Assembly (NCBI RefSeq): GCF_001425045.1
Contig: NZ_LMDJ01000023.1
Span: 571,420-635,419, forward strand
Direction of reading: 5' to 3'
From: Massilia sp. Root351
GTDB taxonomy: Bacteria > Pseudomonadota > Gammaproteobacteria > Burkholderiales > Burkholderiaceae_D
DNA: 64,000 nt
The notes under the pieces were generated by a model. The model saw only the letters and a program-made list of their open reading frames with translations. It was not told the origin of the DNA and ran no database searches. Position 1 is the stretch's first letter. Each line of letters begins with the position of its first letter. The position numbers and the translations under genes are program-made. Shown piece after piece: positions 43,307 through 52,417 of this stretch.

Positions 43307-45412
43307 CTACCAGCTGCGTTCAAGCCCCGCGCGCAGCGTCGGAGAGACGTCGGTCCGTGTCAGCAAGCGCTGGACACCGCCGGGAATGTCGGCGCTGGCC
43401 CAATCCGTCGTGTCCTTACGCATCAGGTTCTCCGCACCCAGCCGCACCCGGGTTGCGCTGTCCAATTCCCACACCGCGTACAAATCCAGCTTGCGCACAC
43501 TGCCAACCGACGACGCCTCCACCAGCGACACCTGGGTACGCGCCCCGCGCTGATAGTTCAGGTCCGCGCCGGCCTTCAGTCCCGGCCGCACCTGCCAGTC
43601 CAACCCGGCGTTTGCGCTCAGCGGCGCCTGGCGGTCCAGCCGGTTGTCCGGCCCCGTCACGCTCTCCACGCGCGACCAGTTGCGGGCCAGGTTCGCCCGC
43701 AGCGACCAGCCGGCCGACAAAGCCGCCTTCGCCTCCAGCGCCAGGCCATGCGCAACCGCCCGTCCCTGGTTCGACGGCGTCCGCACCCAGCGGGTGCTGT
43801 CCTTGAACAGCAGCGGCAGCGTGACGTCGCTGATCCTGCGCGCATAGGCGCTGGCGCTGACCATGCCGTCCTTGCCGAAATAGTGGTCGTAGCCCGCGTC
43901 CAGACCCCACGCCAGTTCCGGCCGCAGGGCCGGGTTGCCCTGTGTGTCCGGGTTGGTGGCGCTATTATTGTTGTCGGCCGTATAGCGGCGCGGAATCAGG
44001 TCCACCATGGTCGGCGCCTTGAAGGTGCGGGCCAGTCCAAGGCGCACTTGCCGTTCGGGCGACAGCTTGACCATCCCCTGCAGCACTGGGCTCAGCACCG
44101 GCGAGCGCTGCGCGATGGAACCAGCCTCGCGCTGCCTCACCGACGTCTCCAACGCCTCCCAGCGCACGCCCGCCGACAGCGACCAGCCGCCGGCCAACTC
44201 CCACTCATCCTGCGCGAACACGGCCAGGCGGGTGATCAGGCCTCGGTAACGCTCATCGTATGCCTGCGCGGTGGTGTGGTCCTGCTCCTCCCGGCTCTGC
44301 GTGCGCCGTGTCCGGCCAGTGTCCCAGCCCACCGCAAGCGCATGGCCGCCGCCCAGCGGCCGCTGGTACTTGCCGCTGAAGGTCAGGCCTGCCTCGCCGA
44401 TATCAGCGTGCACCACTTTCTGGTCCGGCGAGCGAATCCCGCCTGCCAGCGAATGAAACTCGAAGTCCGAGCTGCGCGGATTGGCCAGCAATCCCACCTT
44501 GACCTCCATGCGCGCGCCCTGCTCCAACACGCGTTGCCAGGTCAGATCGCTGCGCAGCAGAACGCCTCGCAAATCCACATGGCGGCCGTTGTCGGGAAAC
44601 TGCGTCGGCGCGCCAGCTAGCACCGTCTCATGCGACTCCACGCCGATGCTGCGTTCATACAGGTTCACAAAGGTTTGCGACGCCAGCGTGTCCGTACCCC
44701 GGTTCCAGGTGAGGCGCGGCGCCACGCTGGCCGTCCGCGCCACATTGAAGTTCAGTTGTGGGCTCACTCGCGACAGCGACGGGGCGCCGCTCGGCCCATC
44801 CTGCGCGGCCACCGTTTCGTACTCCACGCGCCAGTCCGGCGCCGACACCCTGCTGGCCGTGGCGGCAACCGAGTAGCTGTAGCCTTCGCCCTTGTCCGAC
44901 GCCTGCCATGCCAGGCTGGGTGAAAGGGCTCCCGCCAGCGCATCCACTCCCAGCTTGGCCTCCTGCCGCGCACGCGGCGCGCTCTTGCGCAGAATGATGT
45001 TGACGGTACCCGCAATGGCTTGCGTGCCCAGTTCAACCGACGCGCTGCGCAGGATTTCCACCTTCTCGACCAACTCCGGCGCCAGGCTCTCGATATTGAA
45101 TCCGGGCGGCACCGCAACGCCGTTCAGCAGGATTTGCGTATAACCATTGCCCAAGCCACGCATGCGGATCTCGCTGCTTCTGCCGGCGCCGCCCTCGCCG
45201 ATCGTGATGCCCGGCACGCGCTTTAGCACGTCGGCCAGCGTGCGGTCCCCTTGGCGCTGTAACTCCTGCGCTCCAATGACGATGGCCGCCGCAGTCTGCT
45301 CGCGGCGCTGATCCAGCTTCGCACCGGTCACTTCGACCTTTTGCATCTCTTGCGCCCCGACGGCAGCCGGAAATGCCACAACAACGGCCAATGCACAGAC
45401 GTGTAATTTCAT
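43307..45412 (-). CDS. TonB-dependent outer membrane receptor of the BlaI operon
   Basis: A 701-residue protein with a signal peptide (1-20), plug domain (about 25-150: VEVTGAKLDQRREQTAAAIV, IRMRGLGNGYTQILLNGVAV, VEILRSASVELGTQAIAGTV) and a 22-strand barrel ending in the aromatic residue W. TonB receptors import siderophores, vitamin B12, metals or glycans; no TonB box or ligand motif tells which. A GAGGAG box lies just before the ATG at 45412. It follows the M56-M23 gene after a 70-base gap holding a strong hairpin and probably belongs to the BlaI-controlled operon. Confidence 0.9.
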   Translation of the reverse strand: MKLHVCALAVVVAFPAAVGAQEMQKVEVTGAKLDQRREQTAAAIVIGAQELQRQGDRTLADVLKRVPGITIGEGGAGRSSEIRMRGLGNGYTQILLNGVAVPPGFNIESLAPELVEKVEILRSASVELGTQAIAGTVNIILRKSAPRARQEAKLGVDALAGALSPSLAWQASDKGEGYSYSVAATASRVSAPDWRVEYETVAAQDGPSGAPSLSRVSPQLNFNVARTASVAPRLTWNRGTDTLASQTFVNLYERSIGVESHETVLAGAPTQFPDNGRHVDLRGVLLRSDLTWQRVLEQGARMEVKVGLLANPRSSDFEFHSLAGGIRSPDQKVVHADIGEAGLTFSGKYQRPLGGGHALAVGWDTGRTRRTQSREEQDHTTAQAYDERYRGLITRLAVFAQDEWELAGGWSLSAGVRWEALETSVRQREAGSIAQRSPVLSPVLQGMVKLSPERQVRLGLARTFKAPTMVDLIPRRYTADNNNSATNPDTQGNPALRPELAWGLDAGYDHYFGKDGMVSASAYARRISDVTLPLLFKDSTRWVRTPSNQGRAVAHGLALEAKAALSAGWSLRANLARNWSRVESVTGPDNRLDRQAPLSANAGLDWQVRPGLKAGADLNYQRGARTQVSLVEASSVGSVRKLDLYAVWELDSATRVRLGAENLMRKDTTDWASADIPGGVQRLLTRTDVSPTLRAGLERSW

Positions 45413-45482: not shown

Positions 45483-47075
45483 TTAGTTGGCCAGTGCGGC
45501 CGAACGCGCACGAAGCGCGGATGGGAATGCGTTGCGATCCAGGTCGGCGATCAGTTGCGCAGGGTCGATATGCTCGCCGTTCCGCAGCACCTCAAGATGC
45601 AAATGCGGTCCGGTGACGCGCCCGGTGGCGCCGGACAAGCCGATCGCCTGCCCCTCTGCCACGCTCTCGCCGACACGCACAGAGCGCCGGTCCAGATGCG
45701 CGTACATCGAACGCAAGCCCTCGCCATGGTCGATCACAATGACCTGGCCGTATTTGGGCTGCCCGTCATACATGGCAGTGGACTCCACCACTTTGCCGGC
45801 AGCAGGCGCCAGCACGGGCGTACCGCGCCTGGCGGCGAAGTCTACCCCATGGTGGAAGGCGCTGCTCGAAGCCAGCGGCTTGCTGCGCGCCCCATAGAAG
45901 CTGCTGACACGCGCCGCCTCGAGTGGCGCGCGCCACGACGGCACAGACGGAACTGCAACGCTGGCCGCAGCCGGCACACGCTGCACGTCGCCGGCGCGCC
46001 AGGCAAACGCGGGCTGGAGCAGCACGCTGGCAGCCAGCAGCGCCAACGCTGCGCCACCCAGCAAAAGCTTGCCGGCCGCGCCCAGCACCCTGGCCCCGCC
46101 TCCTCGTATCAGCTTGATCCTGTCCGCCAGCGCCGCTACGCCAGCGCCGCCGAATGCGGTCGCCGGGTACCCGCCCGCCATCATCCCCTGCTGCAATTTA
46201 AGCTGCGCCACCAGCGCCGCCGCATAGCTGTGCCGCTGCTGCTCCGGGCGCCCAGCCAGCACCTGCTGATCGCAGGCCAGTTCCTGTGCCCAACTCATTT
46301 TCGACCGCATCAGCCCAACCGCTGGATTGAACCAGAACAGCGTCTGCAACAGGAGACTCGCATGCAGCCAGACGTGATCGCGCCGGCGCCAATGGGTAAG
46401 CTCATGCGCCACGATCAGCTGCTGTTGCTGCGCGTCGAACTGCGCCAGGTGGCAAGGGAGCAGCAGGCGCGGCGCCAGCAAGCCAACCAGCATGGGAGAC
46501 ACCGGCACCGGCGTTTCCAGCACAGGCGGGCCGCGGTACGGCGACACCTCGGCGAAACCCTGATGCGTTTTCAGCGCCGCGCCGCTCACGCGGTCCGCCG
46601 TGCGCAATACCGCGCGCAGCGCCTGTTGCGCGCGCACCCAGCGTCTCACCGCGTACAGCAAACCGGCGCAATAGCACGCCAGCCATGCCTGCGACAACAG
46701 CGAGAGCCAACGGGACGCAGCCATGGTCGGCGCTGCGTCCAGGTCGGCGTCGCCTGCGGCGCCGTCCAGAACACCCCAGGGCCAGCCATCCGGCGGCGTC
46801 AGCGTGCCCGGTATTGGCGACGCCTGCTCCGGTCCACTCGGCGCGGCGCGCGACAATTCGATGGCAGGCACCACACTCAGCGTCGCAGTGCGCGGCGCCA
46901 GCGCCAGCGCGAACGTCACCGCCACAACCAACTGCGCCGCCAGCCACACCGCGCGCTGGGCCGCGATCCCCGGCCACACACGCTCGGCCAGCTTCAACAG
47001 CGCCCACGCAAGGGCGCCCGCCGCCAGGCACGTGGCGCTGGCCAGCAAAAACAGGAATGGGGAAAATGCCGGCAT
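45483..47075 (-). CDS. M56 (BlaR1/MecR1-type) antirepressor peptidase fused to an M23 (LytM) domain
   Basis: A 530-residue membrane protein. N-terminal helices frame an M56 metalloprotease with HELTH (224-228) and the ELACDQ motif (E265), as in BlaR1/MecR1. A final helix (about 340-358) leads outward to an M23 peptidase domain (about 395-505) with its zinc residues HHGVD (H408, D412) and HLH (H491, H493) present. BlaR1 instead has a penicillin-binding sensor there. The M56 part would cleave or trigger cleavage of the BlaI repressor encoded 2 bases upstream; the M23 part may bind or cut cell-wall peptide. Some TonB- or M23-linked BlaR-like proteins are known, so novelty needs a database check. 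Confidence 0.88.
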   Translation of the reverse strand: MPAFSPFLFLLASATCLAAGALAWALLKLAERVWPGIAAQRAVWLAAQLVVAVTFALALAPRTATLSVVPAIELSRAAPSGPEQASPIPGTLTPPDGWPWGVLDGAAGDADLDAAPTMAASRWLSLLSQAWLACYCAGLLYAVRRWVRAQQALRAVLRTADRVSGAALKTHQGFAEVSPYRGPPVLETPVPVSPMLVGLLAPRLLLPCHLAQFDAQQQQLIVAHELTHWRRRDHVWLHASLLLQTLFWFNPAVGLMRSKMSWAQELACDQQVLAGRPEQQRHSYAAALVAQLKLQQGMMAGGYPATAFGGAGVAALADRIKLIRGGGARVLGAAGKLLLGGAALALLAASVLLQPAFAWRAGDVQRVPAAASVAVPSVPSWRAPLEAARVSSFYGARSKPLASSSAFHHGVDFAARRGTPVLAPAAGKVVESTAMYDGQPKYGQVIVIDHGEGLRSMYAHLDRRSVRVGESVAEGQAIGLSGATGRVTGPHLHLEVLRNGEHIDPAQLIADLDRNAFPSALRARSAALAN

Positions 47076-47077
47076 GC

Positions 47078-47452
47078 TCAGTCCTTCCCGGCAGGCCAGT
47101 CTTGCAGCAGTTGATCCAGCGCAGCGAGCTCTTGCTGGTCAACCAGTTTGCTGCCCGTGAACATATTGACCGGCAGCGGCGCGTCCATTTCCATCACGCG
47201 CTTGCCGAAGTCGTGCGCGAAAGCGGCCAGCGTGGCCACCTTTTCCACTGCGGCCGAATACACGTTCACACCGTGCACCGCTTGCAGCGACACCATTTGC
47301 TTCTCCAGCATCCGGTCCAGCGTCTTGCGGGTGGACGAGTACGACCACTCCAGCTCTTCCACAACCCGCTCATGGATCTCGCGCGCGCTGAGCGGCTGTT
47401 CCTTCCACAAGCACTTCAACAAACTCAATTCCGTTACCGATGGCGTAGACAT
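47078..47452 (-). CDS. BlaI/MecI/CopY-family repressor
   Basis: A 124-residue winged-helix repressor: TELSLLKCLWKEQPLSAREI then VVEELEWSYSSTRKTLDRML, the family DNA-binding helices, and a C-terminal dimerisation helix ending in LDQLLQDWP. BlaI proteins bind dyads over their own promoter until an M56 sensor triggers their cleavage. The next gene is such a sensor, and two dyads overlap the promoter just upstream. It is the first gene of the operon blaI-M56/M23-TonB receptor. Confidence 0.92.
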   Translation of the reverse strand: MSTPSVTELSLLKCLWKEQPLSAREIHERVVEELEWSYSSTRKTLDRMLEKQMVSLQAVHGVNVYSAAVEKVATLAAFAHDFGKRVMEMDAPLPVNMFTGSKLVDQQELAALDQLLQDWPAGKD

Positions 47453-47480: not shown

Positions 47481-47509
47481 ATCATACGACAGCTGTCGCA
47501 CTCCTGCAA
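47481..47509 (-). promoter_or_regulatory. Sigma-70 promoter of the BlaI operon
   Basis: On the minus strand TTGCAG (47504-47509) and TATGAT (47481-47486) are separated by exactly 17 bases, with a predicted start near 47474, some 22 bases before the blaI ATG. Operator 1 fills the spacer. Confidence 0.75.
47485..47500. promoter_or_regulatory. BlaI operator 1 (proximal)
   Basis: TACGACA-GC-TGTCGCA, a near-perfect 7+7 dyad lying in the -35/-10 spacer. The half-site TGTCGCA differs from the classic BlaI/MecI TGTAGTA but keeps its spacing and symmetry. Confidence 0.75.
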
Positions 47510-47517
47510 TTACTTTG

Positions 47518-47533
47518 TGCGACAACTGTCGCA
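47518..47533. promoter_or_regulatory. BlaI operator 2 (distal)
   Basis: TGCGACA-AC-TGTCGCA, a perfect 7+7 dyad just upstream of the -35 box. Its centre is 33 bases (about three helical turns) from that of operator 1, so two dimers could bind the same DNA face. Confidence 0.75.
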
Positions 47534-50812: not shown

Positions 50813-52417
50813 TTACGGCCCTAACCGAGGTCTATTCGGGGAGTTATCTATCAATGGTCCAAATGCTGAGATTGCAGCCCCAATGTAAATCGGTCTCAGT
50901 GGATTAAAGTCAGCTACCCCATTAATCATATTTCTAGCAGAACCACCTACGCTTTTCGCGCCCCCATAAAAGTCAATAAGCTGCTGTTCACGTCCACGAA
51001 TTGGAACCTTTGACTCAGACCAGCGATCAACTACCGGTGGACCGAAGCCTTCCTTATTCAAGTGATCTTGCTGTCGGCCACGCTGGGTAGCAAGCTCCTG
51101 CGGCTCACCCACTCCACTTGTCCTGCCAGAATAGACCTGAATTTCACCAGTCACCGGATCCACCCGAGTACGCGTATAGGTGACGTAAATGTATCTGTCT
51201 TCCGCACGCGCTTCGCTTCCACTAATCGTAGCGGTGGCAATCAACGCGGCTGCACCACCAAGACCAGCAGTGGCCCCGGCAAGCGCTTCGCCGCCGCCAA
51301 CGCCACCAGGAACTGCAACACCGCCAGCACCTGCCATTTGCAATCTACCAGCAACAGCAGTTGCGCCCGCAGCCGCAGCTGCTGCAGTATTTGGCGATCC
51401 CAGTCGCACGGTTGGTGGCAGCCCACCAACCCGCGAACCGAAGTAGCCTGAAACTGTCGCAATCGCTGCGAGTTCACCTGCCTTGGCACCATCGAAAATC
51501 ACAGTGGAAATTCCGTAGCGGAAAGACCCCAGGCTAAAGCCAGACTTGGTTTTATCCGACTCCCCTTCGACGACGACCTGAGGCGGTGCTGGGGTCTCCT
51601 CACCCTCTGCAGCAAAGCCAGTTGGGTCCACCAGGTTAGTAGGATTGTTCAGCACATAGCTATAGCGATTGTAGTTCTGGCCATTGCTTGGATCGGCAAT
51701 AAGCAGATCTCCCGACAGGAACTGGGCTACAAAGGGATCATACACGCGTCCGTTCATGTGGACCAAATCGAGTTGGTCGAGCATCTCATGGCCGGTATAG
51801 CCCTTGTTGTCCACCTCACCACTGACAGAGTCTGGCGTGGCTTGGTTAGTCAGCATTCGGCGCTTGCCCCACGCATCGTAAGCGAGCTTCTCCGCCAGCG
51901 TCCCATCAAGGCGAGTCATCGCTACCACACTGCCAAGTCGGTCCGTATGCGTCCAATAGAGTTTGGTCTGTGCAGCCTGTTCGATCTCCACACCGACACC
52001 GAACGGCCAGTAAGTCTTTACCGTGGTCGACAACTTACCGTCTAGCGTCACAGTTTCAACTTCCTGCGCCCCTGCATAGATGACCGTTGTGCCATCACTT
52101 CGGCTCTGTACTGTTCGCTGATGCTCACTCCCGTAAACGAATGCACTTGACTTCCCGTTTCGTTTAATCGTCTTGGGCATGTCGAAGCTAGTCCATGTGA
52201 CCTCATACCCGTTACCAGTGGTGCGGTTGCCGTTGAGGTCGTAGCTGAATTCGCCTGGTACGCCAGGTATGCTCTTCACCGCATGTGGCTGGATCACACC
52301 GGCCCCCGGCTGGGGATAGACGTAATCACCGGTGCCAACACCGCTTTTGCTCTTGATACGTCCGTCCGCAAAGTACTTGAAGCTCTGCAAGTCATTCCCA
52401 ATCTTGCTTGATTCCAA
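50813..52417 (-). CDS. RHS core C-terminus with GIY-YIG-like toxin tip (5'-truncated, orphan)
   Basis: A 534-residue reading from a TTG at 52417; the frame stays open with RHS-like sequence (YWDNELNEGFTEYFTYD) to about 52546 but has no ATG, so the gene has lost its 5' end. Residues 1-268 are YD/RHS repeats ending in the core boundary RVYDPFVAQFLSGDLLIADP and NPTNLVDPTGF. A Gly/Ala-rich linker (about 305-400) leads to the variable tip (408-534): YVTYTR, VYSGRTSG (428-435), GREQQLIDFYG (E477) and NMING (496-500), an order like GIY-YIG nucleases. The tip would cut nucleic acid. Confidence 0.75.
   Translation of the reverse strand: MESSKIGNDLQSFKYFADGRIKSKSGVGTGDYVYPQPGAGVIQPHAVKSIPGVPGEFSYDLNGNRTTGNGYEVTWTSFDMPKTIKRNGKSSAFVYGSEHQRTVQSRSDGTTVIYAGAQEVETVTLDGKLSTTVKTYWPFGVGVEIEQAAQTKLYWTHTDRLGSVVAMTRLDGTLAEKLAYDAWGKRRMLTNQATPDSVSGEVDNKGYTGHEMLDQLDLVHMNGRVYDPFVAQFLSGDLLIADPSNGQNYNRYSYVLNNPTNLVDPTGFAAEGEETPAPPQVVVEGESDKTKSGFSLGSFRYGISTVIFDGAKAGELAAIATVSGYFGSRVGGLPPTVRLGSPNTAAAAAAGATAVAGRLQMAGAGGVAVPGGVGGGEALAGATAGLGGAAALIATATISGSEARAEDRYIYVTYTRTRVDPVTGEIQVYSGRTSGVGEPQELATQRGRQQDHLNKEGFGPPVVDRWSESKVPIRGREQQLIDFYGGAKSVGGSARNMINGVADFNPLRPIYIGAAISAFGPLIDNSPNRPRLGP

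Follow-up and report, generated by a model that had tools for sequence, protein, structure and literature searches.

The BlaR1/BlaI pair is taught as a detector of beta-lactams, and the operators of the Staphylococcus Bla and Mec systems are built around the core ACANNTGT. In sections of a published account of BlaR1 (PMC9834060), self-cleavage is placed at Ser283-Phe284 and cleavage of BlaI at Asn101-Phe102, Arg294 and Asp246 form an interchain pair, and the ligand and an extracellular loop compete within the sensor. According to passages of another report (PMC3305447), BlaI and MecI bind a peptidoglycan dipeptide, and there is therefore a precedent for wall fragments as signals in this regulator family. 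Additionally, excerpts of PMC5967600 describe LRA-13-type loci with BlaR1-like neighbours in the Oxalobacteraceae. With regard to the M23 peptidases, parts of a 2022 review (PMC9662197) state that, among database hits, <1% have a further catalytic domain such as M56 beside M23, and that M56 has not been shown to act in cleaving the wall; since the M56 and M23 combination is mentioned there, the architecture itself is not new. No description of an M56-M23-TonB operon was found among the open-access papers examined, with subscription journals lying mostly outside the search. Here, we present an analysis of such an operon and set it against these known systems.

The operon lies in a 64,000-nucleotide stretch of DNA from Massilia sp. 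Root351 (the window, meaning the whole stretch that was analysed), within a genome of 7.2 Mb. Three genes stand in a row on the minus strand from 47452 to 43307: a BlaI-family repressor of 124 aa (47078-47452; PF03965, E 1.1e-18), an M56-M23 fusion of 530 aa in a single open frame (45483-47075), recognised by its Pfam domains, key residues and a structure model, and a TonB-dependent outer-membrane receptor of 701 aa (43307-45412) with a Plug domain (PF07715) and a barrel (PF00593). The end of the repressor gene and the start of the fusion are 2 nt apart, and 70 nt separate the end of the fusion from the ATG of the receptor at 45412. A preliminary description, made from the letters alone, had placed a BlaI repressor directly upstream of the fusion and a TonB receptor behind it, and both assignments are upheld by these domain matches.

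Both halves of the fusion are matched by Pfam far above the respective cut-offs, with Peptidase_M56 at residues 10-293 (E 1.3e-33, 116.9 bits, cut-off 31) and Peptidase_M23 (PF01551) at residues 407-505 (E 1.9e-32, 111.7 bits, cut-off 28.7). The zinc-protease residues of the M56 half are all there (H224, E225, H228, E265 and D269; HExxH...ExxxD in PF05569), as are the zinc and catalytic residues of the M23 domain (H408, D412, H460, H491 and H493; HxxxD and HxH plus the catalytic His). The penicillin-binding, class-D-like PF00905 was not found in the window fusion by Pfam, and PF01551 stands at that place. The M23 domain falls below every NCBIfam cut-off among the matches listed, and 'M23/M56 family metallopeptidase' is a product name in NCBI use. 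Among named organisms, Pseudoduganella aquatica has the closest counterpart of the fusion (76% identity), from which the host is judged to belong to the Oxalobacteraceae.

In the structure model of the fusion (16 sequences, mean pLDDT 78.9; model numbering is protein numbering minus one), helices 5-32, 40-58, 114-158 and 332-356 fit the four predicted membrane helices, and residues 8-316 superpose on BlaR1 of S. aureus (8ext) with Z 18.4 over 240 residues at 3.2 Å (VIA-align). Residues 376-510 align to LytM/M23 domains, with Z 21.2 for EnvC and 20.7 for ShyA. Ten-residue blocks in this part mostly reach pLDDT 84-95, with dips to 66-78, and the blocks 401-410 and 481-490, which flank the M23 zinc site, average 66 and 68. 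The preliminary description had read a single frame joining an M56 protease to an M23 domain with intact zinc residues, arranged as in BlaR1 with another input domain in place; the Pfam matches, the five residues and the superposition on BlaR1 agree with this, and the modelled M23 region takes the LytM/M23 fold, with pLDDT dipping beside the zinc site. By analogy with BlaR1, the M56 protease would be cytosolic and the M23 domain periplasmic. The domain shares its fold and zinc motif with the M23 enzymes ShyA, MepM, Pgp3 and LytM, and its fold only with the LytM domain of EnvC; unlike all of these, it is fused behind a signalling protease.

A survey of the neighbours of M56-M23 fusions returned a conserved unit in the host family. 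The fusion was found in 18 of 145 sampled family genomes, the window's own included, which is a lower bound with at most ten candidates scored per genome. At the 17 other family loci, a related TonB receptor lies downstream in 17/17, and BlaI lies upstream in 16/17, the one locus without it being cut off by a contig end. Four further named Oxalobacteraceae loci that were counted have both BlaI and the TonB receptor. Outside the trio, gene order and gene lengths vary among several locus groups. BlaI, fusion and receptor are thus a conserved unit in the host family. A quick tree of 22 rows, which holds only the four operon-unlinked receptors with a fetched locus, unites the family's operon-linked receptors in a single clade (SH-aLRT 95), and subgroups of this clade reappear in the M56 tree; TonB receptors up to 44% identical to the window receptor exist outside the operon. 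The M23 domain in place of a penicillin-binding one, together with this joint inheritance of sensor, repressor, DNA switch and transporter, suggests a circuit that monitors the wall rather than an antibiotic.

Beyond the 145-genome sample, 16 further fusions come from the Oxalobacteraceae and from well outside, and the named hosts include Pseudoduganella, Duganella, Janthinobacterium, Rugamonas, Aliikangiella, Rheinheimera, Pseudoalteromonas, Agaribacterium, Ponticaulis, Hyphomonas and Labilibaculum. BlaI lies upstream in all 12 of the 12 non-family fusions (11 by BLAST, L089 by Pfam), and both domains exceed their Pfam cut-offs in 10/10 of those scanned (10 of the 12). Surveys of the order and the class found the fusion in at least 2 of 300 and at least 3 of 369 genomes, own genome included; these counts are lower bounds because only up to four and up to three candidates, respectively, were scored per genome. 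L078 was left out, being taken as the same genome as L046. A Parvularculaceae MAG (L088:1364-4124(+)) has BlaI followed by M56 and M23 in different frames around unread bases; an assembly gap may have split a fusion here, and the locus was left out of the counts.

The marks of a BlaR1-type mechanism recur across this set, which for residue counts consists of the window, the 17 family loci and the 16 others. A profile of ten M56 halves retrieves BlaR1 by sequence (E 1.5e-23). F308, the putative phenylalanine of the autocleavage loop, is present in 31/34 of these M23-type proteins (missing in L084, L094 and L132) and in 9/9 OXA-type proteins, which carry a class-D-like input domain; in the profile alignment, read by hand, it lies two residues off Phe284 of BlaR1 and not on it. 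R319 is kept in 34/34 M23-type and 9/9 OXA-type proteins and falls on Arg294 of BlaR1 in the hand-read profile alignment. In the repressor, Phe98 falls on Phe102 of MecI/BlaI, the P1' position of the known cleavage site (1sd6, 1okr, 1sd4), and is invariant in 13/13 aligned BlaIs; this alignment used a profile of the 13 sequences, a single BlaI having matched only a DNA-binding domain. Four helices, M56 zinc site, an input domain C-terminal of the last helix and an adjacent BlaI with Phe at the cleavage position are features shared with BlaR1/MecR1 and BlaI/MecI of S. aureus and B. licheniformis, and F308 marks a candidate counterpart of their Phe loop. Unlike in those systems, the input domain is M23 and not penicillin-binding, and the predicted output is a TonB receptor and not a beta-lactamase or PBP2a.

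The likeness extends to the DNA, since the operators here are palindromes with the ACANNTGT core as well. Upstream of the -35 element, the BlaI-type operator TGCGACAACTGTCGCA (47518-47533), a 7+7 palindrome, has its core at 47520-47531 with 0 mismatches; it is the sole exact match to TGYGACANNTGTCRCA in the genome, and its position is kept in part of the compared loci. A second operator, TACGACAGCTGTCGCA (47485-47500), lies 33 bp from the first, and its core falls exactly in the 17-base spacer of the proposed minus-strand promoter TTGCAG-17-TATGAT (47481-47509). This promoter is a reading of the sequence, and a similar layout is conserved: in an alignment of 17 upstream regions, judged by eye, TTG is invariant and is followed by a 17-18-base spacer with TGYGACANNTGTCGCA or a near variant and by a hexamer resembling a -10 element, which reads TATGAT in the window and CATAAT or something close to it at many other loci. 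A consensus promoter scan of the operon listed none, the first hexamer of the proposed promoter fitting at 3/6 positions, and a terminator scan of the operon gave two terminator-like sites against 3.2 in shuffles.

Among 32 M23-type blaI promoters, 29 carry an operator scoring at least 13/14 positions, the weak ones (<13/14) being L075, L087 and L094; the count is without L050, where the contig stops before blaI, and without L089. A second copy (>=13/14) lies 33-34 bp off in 14/32. As background, when 5000 stretches of 200 bp were drawn at random from the window, 20 scored 13 or more, and overlap with the real site may account for some of them. Operator carriers include L081, L083-L085, L128 and L132, which going by their names we take to be Gammaproteobacteria, as well as L074 (another order of the host's class) and L086 (an alphaproteobacterium). 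BlaI would bind at these conserved sites. With up to two mismatches, the operator core matches five places in the window against 11.2 in shuffles, and therefore only the two exact sites were used; with up to three mismatches, the reversed control gives more genome sites (570) than the pattern (440), and such looser sites were left unused as well.

We consider it rather probable that the operon is a self-regulated circuit of the BlaR1 type, with a peptidoglycan-derived input and an output through the receptor operon. The two promoter operators and their conservation, both observed, suggest that BlaI represses its own gene, the fusion and the TonB receptor. The fusion would act as a four-helix membrane receptor whose cytosolic M56 protease stays inactive until a change of state in the periplasmic M23 domain; by analogy with BlaR1, and in line with the conserved residues, the active protease would then cut BlaI beside the invariant Phe and derepress the operon. 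The M23 domain is a putative receptor for peptidoglycan stem peptides or cross-links, and could respond either to free muropeptides or to a local change in cross-linking. Probably, as with beta-lactams in BlaR1, ligand binding would displace the loop that joins helices 2 and 3. The preliminary description had likewise proposed wall fragments, wall stress or an M23 substrate as the input instead of beta-lactams; this remains a hypothesis, strengthened by the conserved operon, operator and promoter and by the contrast with the sister system described below. The output, through which the cell might adjust its envelope or import wall-derived material via the TonB receptor, is the weakest step. The link to the wall comes from the M23 domain, which belongs to a family of peptidoglycan peptidases, from a fourth operon gene in G067 whose M23 product nests among the fused M23 domains, and from the M23, PF00144 and deacetylase genes that flank some fusions elsewhere. 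Since a BlaR1-type protease, its repressor and its type of operator are here combined with a peptidoglycan-peptidase domain and stand beside a different gene, the operon allows a direct test of wall sensing by BlaI/M56, and the question of the cargo of one TonB receptor clade gains a defined search for an inducer.

The host genome also contains a second BlaI-M56 pair (G000:C33, about 111250-115440; L001 / L054), whose BlaI and M56 are 72% and 45% identical to their window counterparts and whose M56 protein ends in a class-D beta-lactamase-like domain (PF00905). Divergent from this pair is a gene for a PF00905 + PF00144 protein, as in the LRA-13-type bifunctional beta-lactamases. Such class C-class D loci, to the extent that sections of PMC5967600 cover them, belong to the same bacterial family and share the sister BlaI/M56 and the same operator; they differ from the window operon in their class-D-like input domain, in the beta-lactamase homologues near most of them and in showing no relative of the window receptor at E 1e-10. 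In the M56 tree, the M23-type and OXA-type proteins of the Oxalobacteraceae group together with the long-branched L089 (support 85/94, not starred), with 22 of 42 inner branches open and the bootstrap not settled; the tree is compatible with a swap of input domains on one chassis, in either direction. Taken together, the comparisons indicate that the input domain and the neighbour gene differ together, while protease, repressor and operator are common to both systems. Having both versions side by side in a single genome amounts to a domain swap made by nature, in which the opening of M56 by an input domain can be studied.

The common operator leads to a prediction of cross-talk between antibiotic and wall-state signals, and the operon could be a beta-lactam response after all, in which the M23 domain reports wall damage by beta-lactams and the sister BlaI acts on the same operator, so that cross-talk would make the TonB operon answer to beta-lactams too. 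We regard this as unlikely, despite the shared operator. One consensus fits the operators of both systems (9/10 OXA-type promoters reach at least 13/14), both BlaIs of the host genome have the identical DNA-binding segment WSYSSTRKTL, and, of the six genome sites with at most one mismatch (three for the reversed control), the three intergenic ones all lie at these two operons; PF00144 genes also stand beside the M23-type sensor at three non-family loci (L081, L084 and L132). Against it, the M23 domain, by what is known of its family, has no serine acylation site, and the neighbouring genes separate the two types. At 11/15 OXA-type loci (L177, L178, L179, L181, L182, L183, L186, L054 and L055, more weakly L187 and L188), the fetched stretch contains a homologue of the sister's two beta-lactamase domains, whereas the same two references match nothing at 22/22 M23-type family loci, the window included. 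Conversely, the receptor is kept at 17/17 M23-type family loci and no relative of it was detected at any of the 15 OXA-type loci (E 1e-10); upstream of the OXA-type L079, left out of the M23-type rows as such, lies a remote TonB-type gene (28% over 119 aa). The remaining three of the six genome sites fall inside predicted genes, and a wide regulon was rejected on the genome-wide counts. As a separate observation, the class-D-type sensors read STFN in 8/10 (L001, L022, L023, L024, L027, L055, L072 and L079) and STFK in L025 and L026; in the STFN sensors the lysine of SxxK is replaced, and the acylation chemistry may differ.

The state of the two active sites bears on whether the M23 domain is instead a working, membrane-tethered endopeptidase, with M56/BlaI only tuning its amount and any sensing by M23 incidental. 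All five M23 residues are present in 28/34 fusions, and the fold is that of active enzymes. Six fusions, however, have lost one key residue: H408 is replaced by Q in L049 and by S in L051 and L052, and H460 by Q in L086, L089 and L094, while H224, E225, H228, E265 and D269 of M56 are invariant in 34/34. The M56 site is thus under stricter conservation than the M23 active site, and hydrolysis cannot be the general signal, since these six fusions lack a zinc-site or catalytic residue. Moreover, the M23 domain sits exactly where BlaR1-type receptors have their sensor, and the sister chassis carries a beta-lactamase-like domain there. We hold the endopeptidase explanation to be quite improbable. 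The Hyphomonas fusion (L094:5533-7398(+)) has an extra C-terminal stretch resembling TonB_C (E 0.00018, 22.3 bits, cut-off 24.6).

Outside the host family, the genes that flank the fusion differ from lineage to lineage. A TonB receptor gene is found at L074, a polysaccharide deacetylase gene at L075, a PF00756 esterase gene at L083 and L128, PF00144 genes at L084 and L132 and, divergently, at L081, and M23 genes at L085 and L087; at L081, L086, L089 and L094 the fusion is followed by no called gene in the same direction. Several of these products can, judging by their annotation, act on the envelope. Because the flanking genes vary, with none in four distant loci, the link between receptor and M23 sensing is not a general one. 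The idea of the preliminary description that the system answers by making an outer membrane receptor therefore fits the host family and L074, and does not carry over to the other lineages, where M23, PF00144, esterase or deacetylase genes, or none, stand in its place. The same survey weighs on a further explanation, in which a metal or a protein partner provides the input (zinc supply read through the M23 zinc site, or another wall hydrolase or an activator bound by the domain) and the TonB receptor imports the metal or a siderophore. TonB receptors, as a family, commonly carry metal complexes, and EnvC, whose LytM domain was solved bound to the amidase AmiB, is among the best structural neighbours; yet the annotated flanking genes elsewhere are mostly wall or ester hydrolases, with no metal uptake gene among those scanned, and EnvC-type domains are not known to have the zinc ligands that are present in the window M23 domain. 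This explanation, too, seems to us to have little likelihood. Chance or a mis-joined frame is ruled out, as the fusion recurs in many genomes within and beyond the host family.

Returning to the circuit with a peptidoglycan-derived input, a broader version of it, less probable, is put forward here tentatively. BlaI/M56 would be a general envelope chassis with swappable receptors, and the two copies in the Oxalobacteraceae, one with a beta-lactamase-like and one with an M23 receptor, would merge antibiotic and wall signals on one operator. The M23 domain, which in some lineages has lost an active-site residue, would have turned from cutting peptidoglycan to sensing its peptides, and wall fragments would be imported by the TonB receptor.

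Stand-alone relatives of the sensor domain were also encountered. In G067, the operon continues with a fourth gene for an M23 protein (L039:5494-6258(-)), which on visual inspection resembles a secreted protein, and the host genome encodes a stand-alone relative of this protein at another site (L053:7256-8329(-), G000:C1). Both genes lie near recG; the distance is about 0.5 kb in the host genome, while in G067 it is about 5 kb and spans the operon, and the RecG proteins of the two genomes are 82% identical. In the M23 tree, the two stand-alone proteins nest among the fused M23 domains of the family with modest support, the tree having 136 columns only and the nesting resting on groups at 84/81 and, more widely, 87/90. 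A sensor that resembles a neighbouring enzyme, as in G067, echoes BlaR1, which induces a beta-lactamase related to its own sensor. Elsewhere in the window, a long open reading frame on the minus strand (50813-52417) has a translation that, by eye, looks like an RHS-repeat core followed by a variable C-terminus.
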